Shown here: piece after piece, positions 11,690-37,824 of the stretch
Layout of the letters: every line of letters begins with the position of its first letter
Numbering within the stretch: position 1 is the stretch's first letter
Source: Aneurinibacillus sp.
Lineage (GTDB): Bacteria; Bacillota; UBA5301; DYFA01
Assembly (NCBI GenBank): GCA_020725425.1
Contig: DYFA01000061.1
Coordinates: 59,330-123,329 of the forward strand
DNA length: 64,000 nt
Direction: 5' to 3'
Translations under genes and position numbers: made by a program
Notes under the pieces: generated by a model
What the model saw: the letters and a program-made list of their open reading frames with translations, nothing else
Database searches by the model: none
What the model was told of the DNA's origin: nothing

Positions 11690-13246
11690 GTGGAACCGAT
11701 TGTGCGGCTGGTCGGCATCACCAAGCGCTTTCCCGGCGTCCTGGCAAACGACGGGATCGACCTGGAGATCACCCCGGGGACAATCCACGCGCTGCTCGGG
11801 GAGAACGGGGCGGGCAAGACCACCCTGATGAACATCCTCTACGGCCTGTACCAGCCAGACTCCGGAGAGGTCTTCATCCGCGGGCAGAAGGTGCGGGTCA
11901 CCGACCCCAACGTGGCCATCCGGCGCGGCATCGGAATGGTCCACCAGCACTTCATGCTCATCCCGCCCTTCACCGTGGCGGAGAACATCGTCCTCGGGAG
12001 CGAACCGCGGCGGGGAGTGAGCCTCGACCTGAAACGGGCGGTGGCGGCGGTCGAGGAGCTGTCCGCCCGGTACGGGCTTAAGGTGGATCCCCTGGCCCGG
12101 GTGGAGAGCATCTCCGTCGGGATGCAGCAACGGGTGGAGATTCTGAAGGCTCTGTACCGGGGGGCGGAGGTGCTGATCCTGGATGAACCGACGGCGGTGC
12201 TCACGCCGCAGGAAGTCCGGGAGCTGAAGGTGATCCTCGACTCCCTGGCGGCCCAGGGCAAGGCGATCATCTTCATCACCCACAAGCTCAAGGAAATCAT
12301 GGCGATGGCCCAGGTGGTGACGGTCATCCGGCGCGGCCGGGTGGTCAAGACGCTGCCCACTTCCGAGACCACCCCGGCCGAGCTGGCCAGTCTGATGGTG
12401 GGGCGGGAGGTGATCCTCGAGGTGGAGAAGGGACCGTCCCGGCCGGGGGAGGAGGTCCTCCGCCTCGAGAACGTCACCGCCAACAACAACCGGCGCCTGC
12501 CGGCGCTGCGGGGAGTCGACCTGACGGTCCGCCGGGGCGAGATCCTCGGGATCGCCGGGGTCGACGGCAACGGGCAGAGCGAGCTGGTCGAGGTCCTGAC
12601 GGGATTGCGCCCGGCGACCGGGGGGCGGGTCTTCCTGAAAGGCAAGGAGGTCACTCGGACCAGGACCCGCCAGCGGATCCGGGCCGGCCTGGGGCATATC
12701 CCGGAAGACCGGCACAAGCGGGGCCTCATCCTCGACTTCTCCGTGGCGGAGAACCTGATCCTGGCCACCTACGACCGGCGGCCCTTCGCTTCGGGGATCA
12801 ACCTGAACCAGGGCGAGGTGCGCAAGCACGCGGAGCGGCTGGTCAGGGAGTTCGACGTCCGGACCCCCTCCACCGAGACGGCCGCCCGCTCGCTCTCCGG
12901 CGGCAACCAGCAGAAGGTCATCGTGGCCCGGGAGATCGACCGCGACCCGGACGTGTTGATCGCCGCTCAACCCACCCGGGGCCTGGATGTCGGAGCGATC
13001 GAGTTCGTGCACGAGCGGTTGGTGGCGGAGCGCGACCGGGGGAAGGCGGTGCTCCTGGTCTCGTTCGAGCTGGACGAGATCCTGTCCCTCTCGGACCGCA
13101 TCGCGGTGATGTACGAAGGCCGGGTGGTCGCGGTCCTGCCGGCCGGGGAAGCCAGCGAGGACATCCTGGGTTTGCTCATGAGCGGGGCGGCGCGCTCCGC
13201 CGACGAGGCCCGGGCCGCCGTGGAAGGAGGCAACCGTGTTGGCTGA
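11690..13246 (+). CDS. ABC transporter ATP-binding protein, two ATPase domains (nucleoside/sugar type)
   Basis: GTG start; GENGAGKTTLMNILYGLY, VGMQQRVEILKALYRGAEVLILDEPTAVLTPQE, SGGNQQKVIVAREIDRDPDVLIAAQPTRGLD. Confidence 0.93.
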   Translation: MEPIVRLVGITKRFPGVLANDGIDLEITPGTIHALLGENGAGKTTLMNILYGLYQPDSGEVFIRGQKVRVTDPNVAIRRGIGMVHQHFMLIPPFTVAENIVLGSEPRRGVSLDLKRAVAAVEELSARYGLKVDPLARVESISVGMQQRVEILKALYRGAEVLILDEPTAVLTPQEVRELKVILDSLAAQGKAIIFITHKLKEIMAMAQVVTVIRRGRVVKTLPTSETTPAELASLMVGREVILEVEKGPSRPGEEVLRLENVTANNNRRLPALRGVDLTVRRGEILGIAGVDGNGQSELVEVLTGLRPATGGRVFLKGKEVTRTRTRQRIRAGLGHIPEDRHKRGLILDFSVAENLILATYDRRPFASGINLNQGEVRKHAERLVREFDVRTPSTETAARSLSGGNQQKVIVAREIDRDPDVLIAAQPTRGLDVGAIEFVHERLVAERDRGKAVLLVSFELDEILSLSDRIAVMYEGRVVAVLPAGEASEDILGLLMSGAARSADEARAAVEGGNRVG

Positions 13247-14336
13247 GAGAGAACGCGCTTTCCGTCCTTTCCGCCTCGAGGGTCTGGAAAGGCTGTGGAT
13301 CGCCTTCGCGGCGGTGATGCTGGCACTCTTCCTGGGGGCCGGCTTCATCCTCTGGGCCGGCAAGTCGCCGCTCGTCGGCTATCAAGCGCTCTGGCAAGGA
13401 TCCTTCGGGAGCTTGCAGAACTTCGCCGAACTAACGGTCTCCATGACGCCGCTGGTCTTCACTGGTCTCTCCATTGCGGTGGCCTACCGGGCCGGCCTCT
13501 TCAACATCGGCGCCGAAGGCCAGTTCATCGTCGGGCAGATCGCCGGCGCCTGGGCCGGGGCGGCGTCGGTCTTCACCGGCTGGCCCATGTGGGCGCATCT
13601 GCCGGTGACGCTGCTTGCGGGTTTCCTGGCGGGAGGGCTCTGGGCAGCCGTCCCGGGCCTGCTCAAGGCCTACCGGGGCGTCCACGAGGTCATCAACACC
13701 ATCATGATGAACTGGATCGCTCTGTACTTCACCCACTGGCTGGTGATGGGCCCGCTGCGGGCGGATCCCATCGTTCCCCGGACCAAGGACATCCTCCCCT
13801 CGGCCATGCTGTGGCGGTTCCTGCTCCCCAGCCGGGCCAATCTGGGCATCGTCGTGGCGCTCCTGGTGGCGCTGGCGGTCTGGTACCTCATGTGGAAGAC
13901 CACCGTGGGCTACGGCATCCGGGCGGTGGGTTACAACCCCTCGGCCGCCGAGTACGCGGGTATCCCGGTGGCCAGGCACCTGCTTTTGGCGATGATCATC
14001 TCGGGGGGGTTGGCAGGGCTCGGCGGGGCGGTCTGGGTCTCCGGAGTGCAGCTCAAGTTTCTCGACATCTTCACCTTCACCGGCTACGGCTTCGACGGGA
14101 TCGCGGTCGCCCTCCTCGGGAACAACCATCCCCTCGGTGTCGTGGGAGGAGCGTTCCTCTTCGGCATCTTCGCCCGGGGCGCTCAGCTGATGCAATCCGT
14201 GGCCGACATCCCCAAGGAGATCATCAGCGTCGTGACGGCGGTGGTCATCATCCTGGTGGCGGCGGACCAGATCATCCGCGGCCTCGGCCGTCGGCGGTCC
14301 TCCCGCCGGGCGAAGGAGGTGGCCGCCCATGTCTGA
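13236..14336 (+). CDS. ABC transporter permease (nucleoside type)
   Basis: Operon context; FNIGAEGQFIVGQ, TIMMNWIALY, GYDGIAVALLG-type motifs. Confidence 0.9.
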   Translation: MLAERERAFRPFRLEGLERLWIAFAAVMLALFLGAGFILWAGKSPLVGYQALWQGSFGSLQNFAELTVSMTPLVFTGLSIAVAYRAGLFNIGAEGQFIVGQIAGAWAGAASVFTGWPMWAHLPVTLLAGFLAGGLWAAVPGLLKAYRGVHEVINTIMMNWIALYFTHWLVMGPLRADPIVPRTKDILPSAMLWRFLLPSRANLGIVVALLVALAVWYLMWKTTVGYGIRAVGYNPSAAEYAGIPVARHLLLAMIISGGLAGLGGAVWVSGVQLKFLDIFTFTGYGFDGIAVALLGNNHPLGVVGGAFLFGIFARGAQLMQSVADIPKEIISVVTAVVIILVAADQIIRGLGRRRSSRRAKEVAAHV

Positions 14337-30234: not shown

Positions 30235-30311
30235 GGTCGCATAGCTCAGTTGGTTAGAGCGCTACGCTCACATCGTAGAGGTCCTTGGTTCGAATCCAAG
30301 TGCGACCACCA
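30235..30311 (+). tRNA. tRNA-Val(CAC)
   Basis: Anticodon stem-loop CTACG-CTCACAT-CGTAG; encoded CCA; promoter TTGACA-N17-TACAAT (30193-30221). Confidence 0.95.
30266..30311 (+). repeat. attL core (3' end of tRNA-Val)
   Basis: GCTCACATCGTAGAGGTCCTTGGTTCGAATCCAAGTGCGACCACCA identical to 37743-37788. Confidence 0.9.
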
Positions 30312-30323
30312 CCGAAAAAGCCC

Positions 30324-30358
30324 TCCCGGAGCCGGTTTCAAGGCCCCGGGATTTTTCG
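30324..30358 (+). terminator. Element-borne terminator downstream of tRNA-Val
   Basis: TCCCGG...CCGGGA followed by TTTTTCG. Confidence 0.55.
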
Positions 30359-31630
30359 TGTCTTGGCGCTTTTGGCCCCTACTGTAGCCAAACTGTAGCC
30401 AATCTCCGTAAGCTCCGCGGTGAACTGGTCCATGGCCCGGGCCGCCTTCTCGTCCTGGCCGGGCATCAGGTGGCCGTACAGGTCTAGCGTGATGCGGATG
30501 TTCTCGTGGCCCAGGCGCCGGGAGACGGACATCACGTCAACCCCCTGAGCGAGGAGCAGGGCGGCGTGAGTATGCCGGAAGGTGTGCAACTTGACCCCGG
30601 CGAGAAGCTTTTCGGCGGCGGCCTGGGCGTCCGTCCGGGTGGCGCCCGCCTTCTCATACTCTTCAGCCGCCAGCCGGCGGGCGTTTCGTATGACCCGGCC
30701 GAGGTCCCGGCCGTCTACGTTCGTGCGGCGCAGCATCCCCCCTTTCTCGTTGGTGAAGACGAGCCCGGTATTCTCCCAGGCGGCGCCGGCCCGCAACCGT
30801 TCCTCTGCCTGGCGGCGGCGCTGGCGGTGTAGGGCTTCGAGGGCGGCCTGCGGGAGCGCGATGGTGCGCTGGGCGGCCTTGGTTTTGACGGGACCGATGA
30901 AGACTTGGCCGTTCTCTTCGTGCAGGGCCTGGCGGATCGTGATGGCGCCCTTCGAGAGGTCCACCGCATCCCAGGGAAGCCCCAGCCATTCTCCCGGCCT
31001 GCACCCGGTATTGAGGGCGAGAATGAAGCCGTCCTCCAGCCGCTCACCCCGCGCGCCCTCCAGGAACCAGCGGACCTCCTCCGGCGTCATGAAGCGGGCT
31101 TCATGGCGGCCGGGCGAGCGCTTCGCCGCAAGCTTCGCTGGGTTGCGGGGGATGAGCCCTTTCGCGACGGCGTCTTCGAGCGCTGAGCGCAGGATCGAAG
31201 CCACGTCGAAGACGGTGCGGGGCGCCAGGCCCTGCTCGTCGAGCTTCGCGTACAGGGCGTTGATGCGCCGGTAATCCAGGTCCCGGAGGCGCAGGCTCCC
31301 CAAGAACGGGATGACGTGTTTTTCAAGGTTGAACCGGTATCGCAGGAAGGTGCCGGAGCGCACCTGGCCCTTCTTTGTCAGGAGCCAGTCTGTAAGGTGC
31401 TCCTGGACGGTGATTCTCTCGGGCTTCACGGGCAGGCCCTGAAGCGCGTCCTGCTGGAGCTTCAGGAGCTTCTCCTGCGCTTCTTTCTTCGTTCGGCCGT
31501 AGACCGTCACCCGCTGGCGCTTCCCGTCCGGGCCGTACCCCATGCTGAGCGAGCCGGTCCACACGCCGTCGGCCCGCTGGAAGACGGCTCCTTCCCCACG
31601 GCCGCGGCGCTTCTTTGACTCCTTAGCCAT
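30338..31630 (-). CDS. Tyrosine recombinase/phage integrase
   Basis: HTFRHTHAALLLAQGVDVMSVSRRLGHENIRITLDLYGHL. Confidence 0.95.
   Translation of the reverse strand: MAKESKKRRGRGEGAVFQRADGVWTGSLSMGYGPDGKRQRVTVYGRTKKEAQEKLLKLQQDALQGLPVKPERITVQEHLTDWLLTKKGQVRSGTFLRYRFNLEKHVIPFLGSLRLRDLDYRRINALYAKLDEQGLAPRTVFDVASILRSALEDAVAKGLIPRNPAKLAAKRSPGRHEARFMTPEEVRWFLEGARGERLEDGFILALNTGCRPGEWLGLPWDAVDLSKGAITIRQALHEENGQVFIGPVKTKAAQRTIALPQAALEALHRQRRRQAEERLRAGAAWENTGLVFTNEKGGMLRRTNVDGRDLGRVIRNARRLAAEEYEKAGATRTDAQAAAEKLLAGVKLHTFRHTHAALLLAQGVDVMSVSRRLGHENIRITLDLYGHLMPGQDEKAARAMDQFTAELTEIGYSLATVGAKSAKTRKIPGP
30381..30402 (+). repeat. Tandem ACTGTAGCCAA x2, putative integrase arm-type sites (left)
   Basis: Same 22-mer at 37604-37625. 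Confidence 0.6.
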
Positions 31631-32216
31631 TCGCGCCTCTCTCCTTTCCCAACTGCTTTTGCACGTTCTGCGCCATAGCTGCCGTCCAGTACCAGTCGGG
31701 CGATTCGGGCAGCCAACCCTGCTTCACTGCGTCCTGATAGCGGCCGTAGGCTTCCGGGGAACGCCATGGAGCGAAGGCGAGGTAGCCGTCAAGATCACGG
31801 CAGTCGCGCCCCGTCTCGCGGCGGGCGCGGTAGTCCGCGGCCAGGACGACGGCGGCAACCGGATCGAGATCGGGCCAGCCGGCGCGCAGCCACGCGATCC
31901 ATCGGGCGTGCTCCTGTGTCAACTCCCATTGCCAGGAACGCCCCTTGCTCCGCGCGGCGCACTCTGCCATGGTCGCCAGGATCCGCGCGTCGTCTTCGGG
32001 ATCGTTCTCCGGGCCGGGCCGCCACGGCCCCGACGCGTCAGGCGGGAGAAGTTCCCGCACCACGGAGCGGATGGTCCGCTCGCTGGGCGCCTTGTCTGGA
32101 AACCGGTGATCCACCTCCCGCCAAATCTCGGCGGCGTTCGTGTATCCGCCTTCCCGAACCATGCGGTGAATCTCTCGATAGACTTCCGGATCGATGCGCC
32201 GCTGTCGTTTTGCCAT
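31623..32216 (-). CDS. Hypothetical element protein, possible DNA-binding regulator
   Basis: MAKRQRRIDPEVYREIHRMVREGGYTNAAEIWREVDHRF...; overlaps integrase start, divergent from xis-like gene. Confidence 0.6.
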   Translation of the reverse strand: MAKRQRRIDPEVYREIHRMVREGGYTNAAEIWREVDHRFPDKAPSERTIRSVVRELLPPDASGPWRPGPENDPEDDARILATMAECAARSKGRSWQWELTQEHARWIAWLRAGWPDLDPVAAVVLAADYRARRETGRDCRDLDGYLAFAPWRSPEAYGRYQDAVKQGWLPESPDWYWTAAMAQNVQKQLGKERGANG

Positions 32217-32345
32217 CGGTGCCCTCCTTGTTGCCGAAGATTGCCGGAATGTTGCCGATTGATGTATTTACCTACCACTTGGCTTCCGCTATCATTATAC
32301 CGGCGAACGGGAACGGACGCAATCATTTCTGGAGGTGGATACACC

Positions 32346-32549
32346 TTGAAGCGAGAGGAACTGGTCGGAGACGGCCTACTCGGGGTGGAGGAGGCGGCTG
32401 ATTTCTTGGGTGTGCGCCGGTCGCTGCTATATGTCCTGATGGGCCGCCGGGAGCTCCCGTGGACCAAGATCGGTCGCCGGCGGCTGATTCCCCGCCGGGC
32501 GCTGGTGGAACTGGCGGCCCGGGAGCTTCGGGGCGGGGACCACGAGTAA
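32346..32549 (+). CDS. Excisionase-family HTH DNA-binding protein
   Basis: LLGVEEAADFLGVRRSLLYVLMGRRELPWTKIGRRRLIPRRALVEL. Confidence 0.82.
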   Translation: MKREELVGDGLLGVEEAADFLGVRRSLLYVLMGRRELPWTKIGRRRLIPRRALVELAARELRGGDHE

Positions 32550-32611
32550 TCTGCCCCTTCGGGGAAACGGAGCGGCCCGGGTCGCCAGCCCGGGCCAGGA
32601 GGGTGAGAAAC

Positions 32612-32917
32612 ATGACTTCCACCTGTAGCTTATCACAGATCCGACTCACAAGAGCCTACCGATTGCCCCGGTGGCTCGATTCGAACGCCGATGCGCTCCG
32701 GGCGACGAATGACGACCTCTCGGATTTCGACGACCTCGAGCTGGCCAACGAGGCGTTCCGGGTGCGCCAGGCCCTCGCCAATCTTGGCCCTGGGGCACCA
32801 CAGCTCGTCTTCATCGGCCGAAGGCGACTCCCGGCCCGGGACTGGCTTCTGCTGCGACTCGCCGCGATTCGGCGGGAGCGGCAAGCCCGATGGAGGGAGG
32901 CGGCGGCGGCGTGGTAG
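32612..32917 (+). CDS. Hypothetical element protein
   Basis: ATG 32612 with upstream AGGAGGG; overlaps next gene. Confidence 0.55.
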   Translation: MTSTCSLSQIRLTRAYRLPRWLDSNADALRATNDDLSDFDDLELANEAFRVRQALANLGPGAPQLVFIGRRRLPARDWLLLRLAAIRRERQARWREAAAAW

Positions 32918-34551
32918 ACCGTGCCCTTTTGGTCGAGGCAGGCATTGTCCCTCCCCCGCCACCGAGGCGACAAAAGGAGACGCCGGCCCCGGCAGAAGAG
33001 GCCGCCCCAGAGGAGCAGGGTGATGAACCCAGGCCCCTCCTGGTGCGGCTGGCGGACGTGGAACCCCAGGCCGTAAGCTGGCTCTGGGAACCGTACATCC
33101 CCAAGGGCAAGCCGACCATCTTGGAAGGCGACCCCGCGGTGGGTAAAACCTGGCTGGCGCTGACCCTGGCCGCCATTGTAAGCCGAGGCGACCCGTTCCC
33201 CGGCCCTGACGGCGTGCCGAGGGAGCGGCGGAAGCCCGCCAGCGTGGTCTACTTATCCGCCGAAGACGGCTTGGCCGACACCCTGCGGCCCCGGCTGGAC
33301 GCGGCGGGGGCAGACGTGAGCCGAGTGTGGGCTCTCACCGGGCAGATGGCCGAGGGCGAGGAGAAGTCTATCACCCTGGCGGATCTCGGAGTCCTGGAGG
33401 CGGCGCTGGCGTCCGTGCGCCCCGCCCTGGTGATTGTGGATCCGATTCAAGCCTACCTGGGCGGCGGGGTGGACATGCACCGGGCAAATGAGGTACGCCC
33501 CGTCCTGGCTGGCCTTGCAACCCTGGCGGAGAAATACGGCGCAGCGGCGCTCCTCATCCGGCACTTGGGCAAGGCGCCGCAGGACAGGGCCATCTACCGG
33601 GGGCTGGGCTCTATTGACTTCGCCGCGGCGGCTCGAAGCATCCTCCTCGCCGGCAAAGACCCTAACGACGAATCCCGGCGAGTATTGGCCCACGTCAAAA
33701 GCTCCCTGGCCCCTCTCGGCCCGTCTATAGCCTACACGCTAGGCCCCGACGGCTTCACCTGGTGCGGCGTGTCGGACGTGACCGCCGAGGCGCTGTTGGT
33801 CTCGCCCAGAAGCGAAGAGGAGAAGACCGCAATCGAGGAAGCAGGTGACTTCCTGCGCGAGGCCCTGGCCGATGGCCCGCGTCCCACCAGGGAGATTTTC
33901 GCCGAAGCCCGGAAGCTGGGCGTCACGGAGAAAACCCTTTACCGAGCGAAGGCCCGCCTGGGCGTCGAGGCCCGCAAAGATGGCGACCTAAACAAAAAGG
34001 GGCAGCGGGCATGGCGGTGGCACCTGTGCGAAGAGCCCGATGAGCAAGATAGCCAAGGCCCGCCTGAAGAAGGGAGGACCCTAAGCGTACTTGGGTTGAC
34101 CACCTTGACCACCTTGCCTCAAAGCCAGTCCCAGAACGGCTTTCAAGGCACGGAGCAAGATGGCCACATGACCATCTTCCCTAACGCCCCTCAAACCAGC
34201 TCCCAGAGCGGCTTGGAAGGAAGATGGCCAAGATGGCCAAGTGAAATACGCTTAGAGGGACCGGGCCGCGAAGAGGCCGCCGCCACCCAAGGTGCTCATG
34301 ATGATCGTCTTGACGAATCCCCCCTAAGAACACCCAATGAGCATCTTGGCTCCCTGCCTCCAAAGCCCGATGAAGAGGTGAACCCCATGACAGAATTGAC
34401 TAGATTGACACAATTCACCCCAAGAAGTGATTCTGTCAATAGTGTCAATTCTGTCACGCCCTCCTTGGCTCCCGGGCCGGGGAAGGTCGCCGCCTTGGAA
34501 GGCATTCCGGACCTCCAAGAGGACGACAACCTCGAGGGGGTGGACTTCTGA
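32890..34551 (+). CDS. RepA-like AAA ATPase (replication protein)
   Basis: GKPTILEGDPAVGKTWLALTLAA; VVYLSAEDGLADTLRPRLDAAGAD; LVIVDPIQAYL; repetitive C-terminus. Confidence 0.85.
   Translation: MEGGGGGVVDRALLVEAGIVPPPPPRRQKETPAPAEEAAPEEQGDEPRPLLVRLADVEPQAVSWLWEPYIPKGKPTILEGDPAVGKTWLALTLAAIVSRGDPFPGPDGVPRERRKPASVVYLSAEDGLADTLRPRLDAAGADVSRVWALTGQMAEGEEKSITLADLGVLEAALASVRPALVIVDPIQAYLGGGVDMHRANEVRPVLAGLATLAEKYGAAALLIRHLGKAPQDRAIYRGLGSIDFAAAARSILLAGKDPNDESRRVLAHVKSSLAPLGPSIAYTLGPDGFTWCGVSDVTAEALLVSPRSEEEKTAIEEAGDFLREALADGPRPTREIFAEARKLGVTEKTLYRAKARLGVEARKDGDLNKKGQRAWRWHLCEEPDEQDSQGPPEEGRTLSVLGLTTLTTLPQSQSQNGFQGTEQDGHMTIFPNAPQTSSQSGLEGRWPRWPSEIRLEGPGREEAAATQGAHDDRLDESPLRTPNEHLGSLPPKPDEEVNPMTELTRLTQFTPRSDSVNSVNSVTPSLAPGPGKVAALEGIPDLQEDDNLEGVDF
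34388..34456. repeat. Iteron-like inverted repeat within the RepA-like gene
   Basis: TGACAGAATTGACTAGATTGACACAATTC / GATTCTGTCAATAGTGTCAATTCTGTCA. Confidence 0.6.
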
Positions 34552-34928
34552 TGGACGCGCCCACTCTCTTCCGGAAGCTCCGTGAAGCCGGCTGCGAACT
34601 TCGGGCCGAGGGAGAGCGGCTGAAAGTGCGCGCCCCCAAGGGGTTCCTGACGCCCGACCTGCGGGCGCTGATTGAGCAGCACAAGCCCGAACTGCTGCGG
34701 CTGCTTAGCCCGGCCCGGGGGGCCCGCCCGGTCAGTCTGCCGGCGTCCCTTTGGTGGGACGGGATGTGCCTTGCGTGTGGCGCTGGCCAGTGGTGGCTGT
34801 CCATCTACGGCGCGCTGATCTGCGCCACCTGCCACCGGCCGGCGGCTACCTGGCTGGTGGAGCGGCTGGTCGGCCAGGACGAAGCGGCCCGCCTGGCCCT
34901 GGCCCGGGAGGAGGCGAATCGCCGATGA
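34551..34928 (+). CDS. TubC N-terminal docking-like domain protein
   Basis: CELRAEGERLKVRAPKGFLTPDLRALIEQHKPELLRLL; CxxC...CxxC. Confidence 0.65.
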   Translation: MDAPTLFRKLREAGCELRAEGERLKVRAPKGFLTPDLRALIEQHKPELLRLLSPARGARPVSLPASLWWDGMCLACGAGQWWLSIYGALICATCHRPAATWLVERLVGQDEAARLALAREEANRR

Positions 34929-35128
34929 AGATCATCGAGGTGAAACTGCGCCGTTGCACGTTGGCCTTGACCGAAGCCGAACTTCTGAGCCTCTTGGCCG
35001 CCGACATGACCCTGTGGCGGCGGGCGCTGGAACGCGGCAAGGCGCTTCGGCGAAGCCGGGCGAAGGAAGCTCGGCTGGGGTGGGCCCCCGGGGCTTCGGC
35101 GCAACCAGGAAGGGAGGGTAGGCCATGA
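34925..35128 (+). CDS. Hypothetical small protein
   Basis: Overlapping start/stop. Confidence 0.5.
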   Translation: MKIIEVKLRRCTLALTEAELLSLLAADMTLWRRALERGKALRRSRAKEARLGWAPGASAQPGREGRP

Positions 35129-35217
35129 AGGCGTTGTTGGTCGCCTGCCGGGTTATGACAGCCATAGGCGCCGTGGTGGCAGTGGTGGTCATGGTGGCCG
35201 CGGTGTGGGCGCGGTGA
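35125..35217 (+). CDS. 30-aa single-TM peptide
   Basis: MKALLVACRVMTAIGAVVAVVVMVAAVWAR*, ATGA-type overlap with previous gene. Confidence 0.4.
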   Translation: MKALLVACRVMTAIGAVVAVVVMVAAVWAR

Positions 35218-35348
35218 CGAAAAGCCCTTGCGTAAGCCCAGCTAGGGGGAGGGGGGCCGCGTTTTCCAGCGTTCCGGCTCTGGGGACCGGCCGGCCAGGC
35301 TTCTTCAGGCGGGCGAGGGTAAAGCATAATTAAAAGTTATGGGAGGGG

Positions 35349-35672
35349 ATGGAAACGCCTATGAATGCCGGTCCCAAACCACCGAAGGGGCTGTCTTCGG
35401 AGGCCCGGCGCTGGTGGAAGCGGGTGGTGTCGGAGTTCGCAGTGGACGACACTTCCGGGCTGATGCTCTTGCAACAGGCGCTGGAGGCTTTCGACCGGGT
35501 TCGGCAGGCCCAGGCCGTGTTGAAGACGGAGGGGCTGATCGTGACAAACCCTGCGACCGGCGCCCGGCACGTGCACCCGGCGGCGAAGATCGAGCAGGAC
35601 GCCCGCATGGCGCTGCTGCGCTACTGGAGAGCGCTTGGACTGGACATCGAGCCCCCAGGAGGGAGGAAGTAG
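35349..35672 (+). CDS. Phage terminase small subunit, P27 family
   Basis: GPKPPKGLSSEARRWWKRVVSEF...LLQQALEAFDRVRQAQAVLKTEGLIVTNPATGARHVHPAAKIEQDARMALLRYWRALGL. Confidence 0.87.
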   Translation: METPMNAGPKPPKGLSSEARRWWKRVVSEFAVDDTSGLMLLQQALEAFDRVRQAQAVLKTEGLIVTNPATGARHVHPAAKIEQDARMALLRYWRALGLDIEPPGGRK

Positions 35673-35674
35673 CC

Positions 35675-36130
35675 ATGGCGACCGTGAGGCGCCGGCGCCG
35701 GGTGAAGCGCCGGGATGAACTGACAGACGGCGAATTCTGGGACCTGATGCTAGATCGCAAGTGGCGGGAAGGGAGCTCCTTCGAATCCCCCTTCCTGCGA
35801 AAAGCGGCCTGGCTGGCGCACCGGGAGGAGTTGCTGGAAGGGCATGTCGGAGAGGGAGTCCGGCCCGGCGCCTGGTGGGAGTACGACGCGCCGGGGCAGC
35901 CCCTGATCCTCACTGACGGGCGGGAGGAAGGCCATCTTGCGGCCCTGGTGAGATTGGGGGAAGCCACCCCGGGGGAAGTCCGCCAATTCCTGCGTGAGCA
36001 TGCGCTGAGGTTCGGAAGTCCCCAGGAGCGCGAGGATCTCTTCCGGTTTCATCCAGACGAAAAGGTGCGGTATGAGCATGAGAAGCGGCTCATCGAAGCC
36101 TTGGAAAAGAAAGGGAGAATGCAGAAATGA
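35675..36130 (+). CDS. Hypothetical element protein
   Basis: ATG 35675 with GGAGGGAGG upstream. Confidence 0.6.
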   Translation: MATVRRRRRVKRRDELTDGEFWDLMLDRKWREGSSFESPFLRKAAWLAHREELLEGHVGEGVRPGAWWEYDAPGQPLILTDGREEGHLAALVRLGEATPGEVRQFLREHALRFGSPQEREDLFRFHPDEKVRYEHEKRLIEALEKKGRMQK

Positions 36131-36229
36131 GCGATCCGACCTACGCCAGGCTTTGCGCGCGCGCCGGCGAGTTTTGATAAGGGGGGGTGCAGCGCCGCCC
36201 CCGAGGCAGGAGGAAAGGAGGAGCACGTC

Positions 36230-36493
36230 ATGCCTGACTCGACAGCCCGCAAGAAGGGCTACCCGGGAGCCCCTTACTGGGAGCGGGAGGCGCCCGCTGA
36301 GGTCTGGACCGACCGCCTAGCCCTGGCCTACTACCCCACGGCCGGCAAGCTCCAGGTGGCAGCCGCTTTCCGGGACCGGACCACGGGTGAGAAGCGGCGG
36401 GGCAAGACCGTGACCCTGGACCAGGAGGATCTGGCTCTCCACCCTGAGGCCCGGGAACTTCTGGCCCGCGTCTTGGAGGAGTGGGGAGGGTGA
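36230..36493 (+). CDS. Hypothetical element protein
   Basis: AGGAAAGGAGG SD upstream of ATG 36230. Confidence 0.55.
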   Translation: MPDSTARKKGYPGAPYWEREAPAEVWTDRLALAYYPTAGKLQVAAAFRDRTTGEKRRGKTVTLDQEDLALHPEARELLARVLEEWGG

Positions 36494-36565
36494 CATGCCC
36501 CGAGGCCCGGGCATGAAGGACTGGAGCGGGGCGCGTGGAAAAACGAAGGAACGGAGGTTTTTAAC

Positions 36566-36781
36566 GTGAGCGAGCGAGTCTACGGCATGTATGCGCTGGA
36601 CAGGGAGACCTTGCAGCGCGTGTTCTGGCTTTTGGACTGGGCGGAGGCCAACGTAGGCCTGGAGAAGGAGCCTCTCCTGCGGGACTTGCAGGCCAGGTTA
36701 GCCAAGACGTTCTTGCGGGTGGGCGATGCCGAACCCCTGCCGGAAGTCCTGACCGTGGCGGGTGATGGCGGTGCCGTTTAG
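36566..36781 (+). CDS. Hypothetical element protein
   Basis: SD ACGGAGG upstream; GTG start. Confidence 0.5.
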   Translation: MSERVYGMYALDRETLQRVFWLLDWAEANVGLEKEPLLRDLQARLAKTFLRVGDAEPLPEVLTVAGDGGAV

Positions 36782-37091
36782 GGATCCTGAGAAAAGGCGG
36801 GAGTATCACCGTGAATACTCCCGGCTGCGGCGGGTTTGTCAAACCCCGGGCCAAACCCCGCTCCCCTCCGAGTTCAGACTGCAGACGGCCCGGGACGTCA
36901 TCACACTCCTGGCCGAGCAGGTCGAGGCGGTGCGGCGGGACACAGAGGCGGGAACGCTGGAAAAGGCCAGGTGCATAGGGTACCTTGCCGCCGTAGCCCT
37001 GAAGGCCGTGGAGGCGGCGAACCTTGAGGCCCGGATAGAGGCCCTGGAGCGGGCAATCCAGGAGAAGGGGAGTGTTGCGAGGTGGGCCTGA
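36765..37091 (+). CDS. Hypothetical element protein
   Basis: FRDPEKRREYHREYSRLRR; overlaps neighbours. Confidence 0.5.
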   Translation: MAVPFRDPEKRREYHREYSRLRRVCQTPGQTPLPSEFRLQTARDVITLLAEQVEAVRRDTEAGTLEKARCIGYLAAVALKAVEAANLEARIEALERAIQEKGSVARWA

Positions 37092-37318
37092 AAGACCGCC
37101 TGAGGCGGCTTGAGAAGAACGCGCAATGCCTGCGGCAAGACCGCTGCCTCGGGTGCGGCGGAAGGCACGCGAGGACGTTGGTTGACTTCCTGCTGTGGGC
37201 CGAAGGAAAAGGCGACGAGCCGGCTTGCACTTGCCAAAAGTGCGGCTGCGGCGGGTTTGTCCGCAAATTGCACTCTGTTGGCACCGGAAACTCAAGGTTG
37301 GGAAATTTCCCAACCTGA
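37082..37318 (+). CDS. Hypothetical Cys-rich (zinc-ribbon-like) element protein
   Basis: CLGCGG...CTCQKCGCGGF; GTG start. Confidence 0.45.
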   Translation: MGLKDRLRRLEKNAQCLRQDRCLGCGGRHARTLVDFLLWAEGKGDEPACTCQKCGCGGFVRKLHSVGTGNSRLGNFPT

Positions 37319-37351
37319 AATGTTTGTCCGCAAATTGCACTCTGTTGGCAC
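37255..37351. repeat. 30-bp direct repeats flanking a 22-bp perfect palindrome
   Basis: GTTTGTCCGCAAATTGCACTCTGTTGGCAC at 37255-37284 and 37322-37351; AGGTTGGGAAATTTCCCAACCT 37295-37316. Confidence 0.8.
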
Positions 37352-37603
37352 TGCGCCCGAGCCACGCCCCGACCGCTGCGAGACCCAGAATTGGTTCCTG
37401 TGAGGCGATAAGGCGAGCGGGAGGAGAAATATATACGCCCAGACCAATGACCCAGGGCCCCCTGGCATACCGGGTGGGTGGTGTTATACCCCCGCCCCGG
37501 ATACCCCCGAGGCACCTTCGCGCGCTCGTGGTCGCTGATTATCCCTCGCCGCAGCGGCCCCTCACGCCAGGGAGCTTCCCATCGGCTTTCCGGAGGTTGA
37601 GTC

Positions 37604-37625
37604 ACTGTAGCCAAACTGTAGCCAA
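37604..37625 (+). repeat. Tandem ACTGTAGCCAA x2, putative integrase arm-type sites (right)
   Basis: Same 22-mer as 30381-30402. Confidence 0.6.
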
Positions 37626-37742
37626 ACGGGCGGAAAACGGCGGAAAATGGGGTACATACACGGAAGCATGCTATGGACCAAAACCCGCACCAGGAGCCAG
37701 TTATGAATGAAGGCGGACGGTGGCGGAAAGCACCGAGATGCA

Positions 37743-37788
37743 GCTCACATCGTAGAGGTCCTTGGTTCGAATCCAAGTGCGACCACCA
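37743..37788 (+). repeat. attR core
   Basis: 46-bp duplicate of tRNA-Val 3' end. Confidence 0.9.
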
Positions 37789-37800
37789 TCCGCAATCCCA

Positions 37801-37824
37801 CCCGCCTGCACAGGCGGGCTTTTC
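37801..37824 (+). terminator. Probable original tRNA-Val terminator
   Basis: CCCGCCTG-CA-CAGGCGGG-CTTTTCT. Confidence 0.7.

Follow-up and report, generated by a model that had tools for sequence, protein, structure and literature searches.

The DNA analysed here, a 64,000-nucleotide stretch of contig DYFA01000061.1 of Aneurinibacillus sp. (referred to as the window), contains a compact integrated element with phage-type genes. The attachment gene is a tRNA-Val(CAC) gene at 30235-30311 (+), identified by ARAGORN as still complete after the insertion. The 7,477-bp element ends with an exact copy of the 3' part of this gene, a repeat of 46 nt. Allowing up to three mismatches, the repeat was present in two copies only in the 2.38-Mb draft genome of the host, and a chance origin of an exact 46-bp repeat at a spacing of 7,477 bp is excluded. 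Just inside each end lies the tandem motif ACTGTAGCCAAACTGTAGCCAA, of which the 10-mer CTGTAGCCAA was found only at the two element ends in the whole window. A terminator-like hairpin stands 13 nt past the right repeat. The same-class genome G001 has the same cluster purA / tRNA-Lys / tRNA-Glu / tRNA-Val without an element, and a terminator-like hairpin follows directly after its tRNA-Val; one occupied (the host genome) and one empty (G001) example of the site were thus observed. The insertion is site-specific and its ends are intact, and the perfect 46-bp direct repeats of the tRNA-Val 3' end that the initial annotation had placed around about 7.5 kb were recovered with 100 % identity.

Integrase and putative regulator genes are directed leftward, whereas xis, o101, rep, the gene of a TubC_N-domain protein, o67, o30, terS and five small genes are read rightward (Table 1). 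Matches to TIGR01764, PF13481 and TIGR01558/PF05119 agree with the rightward genes that had been annotated initially, an excisionase-like helix-turn-helix (HTH) protein, a RepA-like ATPase and a P27 terminase small subunit (TerS). Of the two leftward assignments, the integrase stood (PF00589) and the regulator received weak support from HTH_32. Scans of all open reading frames (ORFs) with Pfam, PHROGs and NCBIfam recognised no large terminase subunit (TerL), portal, capsid, tail or lysis gene; the absence stated in the initial annotation thus extended to the hypothetical ORFs, which favours a satellite. On the DNA level, the similarity of the whole element to phages was limited to tRNA matches and one short match in rep.

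Table 1. Features of the element and its borders (positions in the window; aa, amino acids)
Feature	Position	Strand	Basis
attL core, 46-nt repeat	30266..30311	+	repeat analysis, two copies in genome
int, tyrosine integrase, 430 aa	30338..31630	-	PF00589 5.6e-17; phrog_1 1.3e-68
Arm-type integrase-site candidate, left	30381..30402	+	repeat analysis; putative function
reg, putative regulator, 197 aa, weak N-terminal HTH	31623..32216	-	HTH_32 E = 0.2, below cut-off; position divergent from xis
Divergent intergenic region, repeated TTGCCG motifs, operator candidate	32217..32345		predicted
Rightward promoter-like site between reg and xis	32267-32295	+	predicted
xis, excisionase/AlpA-like HTH, 67 aa	32346..32549	+	PF12728 1.9e-10; TIGR01764 over cut-off
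o101, no assigned function	32612..32917	+	homologues adjoin xis-like genes in L049, L169
rep, AAA_25 RepA-like ATPase, 546 aa	32911..34551	+	PF13481 4.7e-39
Candidate replication origin, 27-nt inverted repeat of TTGACA-type units at 3' end of rep	34388..34456		putative function
TubC_N-domain protein with CxxC pairs, 125 aa, family hallmark	34551..34928	+	PF18563 3.9e-14; ten other loci
o67, family hallmark small protein	34925..35128	+	profile search (see text)
o30, possible small membrane peptide	35125..35217	+	sequence only
terS, short P27-family TerS, 103 aa	35361..35672	+	TIGR01558, PF05119 over cut-off; structure model
o151, no assigned function	35675..36130	+	homologue downstream of TerS in L138, E 3.4e-14
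o87, no assigned function	36230..36493	+	conserved in L061, L157/L158, L162
o71, no assigned function	36566..36781	+	ORF only; no relative found in other elements
o108, no assigned function	36765..37091	+	C-terminal half weakly like TerS-like HTH proteins of L052/L057
o78, small protein with CxxC motifs	37082..37318	+	ORF only; no relative found in other elements
Two identical 30-nt direct repeats around palindrome, packaging- or regulator-site candidate	37255..37351		repeat analysis
Arm-type integrase-site candidate, right, identical to left copy	37604..37625	+	putative function
attR core, 46-nt repeat	37743..37788	+	repeat analysis, two copies in genome
Terminator-like hairpin, probably of tRNA operon, displaced by insertion	37801..37818	+	sequence; comparison with G001

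The element was compared with its relatives by a profile search for o67 in 399 genomes of the phylum. Sixteen loci in 13 genomes were marked by this gene, which encodes 67 aa and lies close to rep. Duplicated ends were present in nine further elements of 6.7-15.5 kb, mostly located at tRNA genes, which share the layout; their cargo is TerS, HK97 capsid, tape measure or nothing recognised, and neither TerL nor portal was detected in them by local hidden Markov models (HMMs). Among the o67-bearing elements with duplicated ends are L158 (tRNA-Leu, 8.7 kb), L162 (tRNA-Trp, 8.2 kb, with capsid), L163 (tRNA-Lys, 11.9 kb), L164 (tRNA-Trp, 6.7 kb), L166 (tRNA-Pro, 7.9 kb), L167 (tRNA-Pro, 8.3 kb), L168 (15.5 kb, an 88-nt repeat of tRNA-Trp-type sequence, HNH-TerS-tape measure) and L054 of Desulforudis sp. 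J_13 (tRNA-Lys, 9.1 kb, int-xis-Rep-o67-HNH-HK97 capsid). In L054 the attachment-site duplication spans 50 nt or more, and arm repeats are paired at the ends. This element resembles ours in tRNA integration, in the order int-xis-AAA_25 Rep-o67 and in arm repeats at both ends, but is larger, has HNH and HK97 capsid genes in place of TerS and contains a CRISPR-like array. L137 (8.5 kb) consists of int, a large gene in the regulator position, xis, a D5-type primase, o67, TerS and HK97 capsid, and has 30-nt end repeats of 87 % identity and paired 20-nt arm repeats. The order int-xis-Rep-TubC_N-like gene-o67-TerS-o151 homologue-tape measure was found in L138, within a 26.8-kb interval bounded by a 54-nt repeat that may be composite. 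L052 of Peptococcaceae BRH_c4b has int-reg-xis-CHC2 primase-Rep-o67 and a TerS-like HTH gene; attachment ends were looked for at this locus and not found. Ten of the 12 host genomes, the source genome included, had no match to the TerL family PF03354, and in the other two (G307, G364) it was located away from the elements.

The small genes set these loci apart from the phage comparators. o67 had no match in PHROG, Pfam or phage records, and its structure model (predicted local distance difference test, pLDDT, 78; predicted template modelling score, pTM, 0.43) gave no informative match in the PDB. No match to o87 was obtained in phage records, and no homologue of o151 or o87 in viral contigs. 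The genes o67, TubC_N and o87 were absent from 25 rep-bearing viral contigs and six other phage or prophage loci. Relatives of the AAA_25 Rep are common in Bacillota; they occur in viral contigs and plasmids, and beside integrases in many elements of gut Clostridia. Since two phage contigs with HNH-TerS-TerL (L016, L023) carry a related Rep, this protein alone cannot separate phage from satellite. A full prophage with the genes of the element as one end, which the initial annotation had named as a possible refutation, was not among the relatives; only the Rep family was common with full phages.

The TerS exceeded the curated NCBIfam and Pfam cut-offs with 48.2 bits for TIGR01558 (cut-off 45.6) and 36.2 for PF05119 (cut-off 24.7). 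Its AlphaFold model had a pLDDT of 90. In a comparison with BFVD, the named matches at E < 0.001 were TerS proteins, with a best E of 2.2e-05 and a template modelling score of up to 0.77; in the PDB, HK97 TerS (8pop, 6z6e) took four of the five top places at non-significant E-values. The protein is therefore predicted to fold like a phage TerS, and it has the family and fold in common with HK97 / P27-family TerS. A profile search of PDB sequences yielded no credible match, phage records no match, and as a single-protein query the TerS found no direct homologue in genome contigs or viral contigs. P27 TerS of prophages have 159-172 aa with an N-terminal extension, whereas the TerS of the element lacks this extension. 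Its closest homologues, in L137 and L138, are similarly short (111 and 106 aa; 47 % and 35 % identity). L140 gave the only viral-contig match of the short-TerS alignment; its phage contig encodes TerL and portal, and it was set aside as a relative. Beside the TerL/portal module lie a short-TerS-like gene and two capsid genes of HK97 type, perhaps a satellite adjoining or inside a prophage.

The definition of phage-inducible chromosomal islands (PICIs) rests on attachment sites that prophages never occupy, on gene order, on a lack of structural and lytic genes, on a length of 12-15 kb, on genes exclusive to them, and on induction and transfer that depend on a phage (Fillol-Salom 2018, PMC6092414). 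Our element shares with them the specific attachment site, the integrase and regulator facing a replication module, and the absence of genes for structure or lysis; the conserved divergent order holds for its integrase, replication module and master regulator, the regulator being recognised by position and its weak HTH. A terS homologue is present in some PICIs (PMC6092414) and also here. With 7,477 bp, however, the element has about half the size of PICIs (PMC6092414). It also differs by the hallmark genes o67, TubC_N and o87, by a host outside the groups covered in PMC6092414, and by being known from its sequence alone. Since gene order and missing structural genes fit the definition but size does not, we term the element PICI-like. 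Satellites clustered in the integrase tree, but the starred branches require at least three changes, thus there is no exclusive satellite integrase clade. Of the PICI-like reading in the initial annotation, the satellite part was strengthened by relatives in several genera, which show the same layout at various tRNA genes and lack TerL and portal; the PICI family label was not demonstrated, given about half the usual size, the hallmark small genes without match in PHROG or phage records and the missing integrase clade. Capsid-forming PICIs (PMC11389934, PMC10803314) have their own capsid genes, as the relatives L137, L162 and L054 have an HK97-type capsid, but in the relatives the capsid comes without TerL and portal, and in our element and its host genome no capsid was found. 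Phage-inducible chromosomal minimalist islands (PICMIs; PMC10803314) are likewise very small with int, an AlpA-like gene and a replication gene; in Vibrionaceae they are inserted beside fis, and a terS homologue is missing from PICMI115 (PMC10803314), whereas the present element resides in tRNA-Val with terS. Described phage-satellite families are concentrated in few bacterial groups (PMC11389934). A satellite family with this core in these hosts was found neither in PMC11389934 and PMC10803314 nor in the open-licence literature searched.

Most likely, the element represents a phage parasite of a kind so far little described, which travels in the particles of another virus, and we are fairly confident that it is an integrated phage satellite working like a PICI. 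The comparisons lend the satellite reading more support through the relatives than through the tRNA-Val locus alone. Exploitation of a helper is indicated because several family members carry single phage parts (TerS, capsid, tape measure). Infection by a P27/HK97-type helper phage would derepress the element, which would then be excised by Int and Xis and replicate from its own rep-ori module. The short TerS would recruit the large terminase of the helper to satellite DNA, and satellite genomes of 7.5 kb, alone or as concatemers, would be packed into helper-made particles. The redirection of the helper's packaging motor by the element's TerS is suggested by our analysis, a step that we infer.

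An origin by decay of a P27/HK97-type prophage, in which all genes from TerL to lysis would have disappeared while the ends and early genes remained, is improbable. Int and TerS are phage-type genes, and a related Rep does occur together with HNH-TerS-TerL in full prophages (L016, L023), but neither broken phage genes nor remnants of TerL, portal or capsid were found, all main ORFs are open, and both attachment cores and arm repeats are perfect. The short form of TerS is common to other small elements. A satellite is favoured over independent prophage decay because the compact layout without TerL and portal recurs at many sites in several genera and the small genes o67, TubC_N and o87 are absent from the phage comparators. 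An integrative mobilizable element or integrated plasmid with a captured terS, moving by conjugation or with other elements, could account for the AAA_25 Rep, which is known from plasmids and integrase-linked elements of gut Clostridia, and for family members without packaging gene. We consider it very improbable: Pfam and NCBIfam scans of the ORFs gave no relaxase or mobilization gene, and TerS, TerS-like HTH, HK97 capsid or tape measure genes are present in L052, L054, L137, L138, L162 and L168. The element may also be a satellite that has decayed and become immobile in this strain, a variant of the preferred reading that is not exclusive with it. The lack of a detected helper prophage and the stretches without clear genes (36131-36229, 37319-37742) would fit such a decay, but the reading frames of int, xis, rep and terS are open, the attachment and arm sites are perfect duplicates, and we consider it unlikely.

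Several observations weigh against a satellite of the PICI type. The regulator is weakly HTH, and was assigned by position and the HTH_32 match at E = 0.2. The Rep family is found in plasmids and full phages as well. The absence of TerL and portal from the relatives was derived mainly from local HMMs, each built from three prophage sequences. In L158, L164 and L166 no packaging or morphogenesis gene was recognisable, therefore transfer in phage particles is not established for every family member. The host genome is 97 % complete in 72 contigs. Its single PF05119 TerS is the element's own, and matches to PF03354 TerL, PF04860 portal or PF05065 capsid were absent; the helper prophage with a P27-type terminase considered in the initial annotation was thus not found, in a search that covered these families and leaves contig gaps.

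Additional observations were made on the element and related loci. Near the right end, the twin 30-nt repeats (37255-37284 and 37322-37351, 67 nt apart) flank the palindrome TTGGGAAATTTCCCAA. The similarity of o108 to the TerS-like HTH proteins of L052 and L057 (phmmer E 7e-5 and 7e-3) is a hint only. PADLOC detected no convincing defence gene on the element; Rep had a weak match to mad8 (E 1.3e-4). A second integrase with a neighbouring xis-like match was located in the same genome near the end of a short contig (L128, C62:1-7977), with no phage gene evident. The HK97-type major capsid genes L137:7577-8908 and L162:7356-8618, in 8-kb elements, are the only PF05065 matches in their host genomes. 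Near a P27 TerS, L168:5028-6923 and L138:11217-13634 encode tape-measure proteins, which match PHROG tail families with E as low as 3e-53; these elements, without TerL, portal and capsid, are possibly satellites that change the tail length. Transcriptional regulators similar to phrog_36 (L163:9100-9690, L167:10587-10991) may tie L163 and L167 to phage late transcription. In L054, the array at 12612-13415 comprises at least seven palindromic, CRISPR-like repeats with a period of 65-68 nt, and no cas gene was recognised in the element.

With about even chances, the element belongs to an undescribed satellite lineage of Bacillota-type hosts. Such a lineage would have int-xis-Rep/primase-TubC_N-o67 as its defining core, inserted in most cases at tRNA genes, and an exchangeable slot for one phage part each (TerS, HK97 capsid, HNH, tape measure or none), its members hijacking helpers at different assembly steps. 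Members with only a capsid gene or with a tape measure gene point to satellites by which the parts of a virion are replaced singly. If this is true, o67, o87 and TubC_N would be marker genes for finding further elements, and widespread elements of 7-15 kb with a common small-gene core and swappable morphogenesis genes would extend phage satellites to poorly studied anaerobic and environmental Bacillota.

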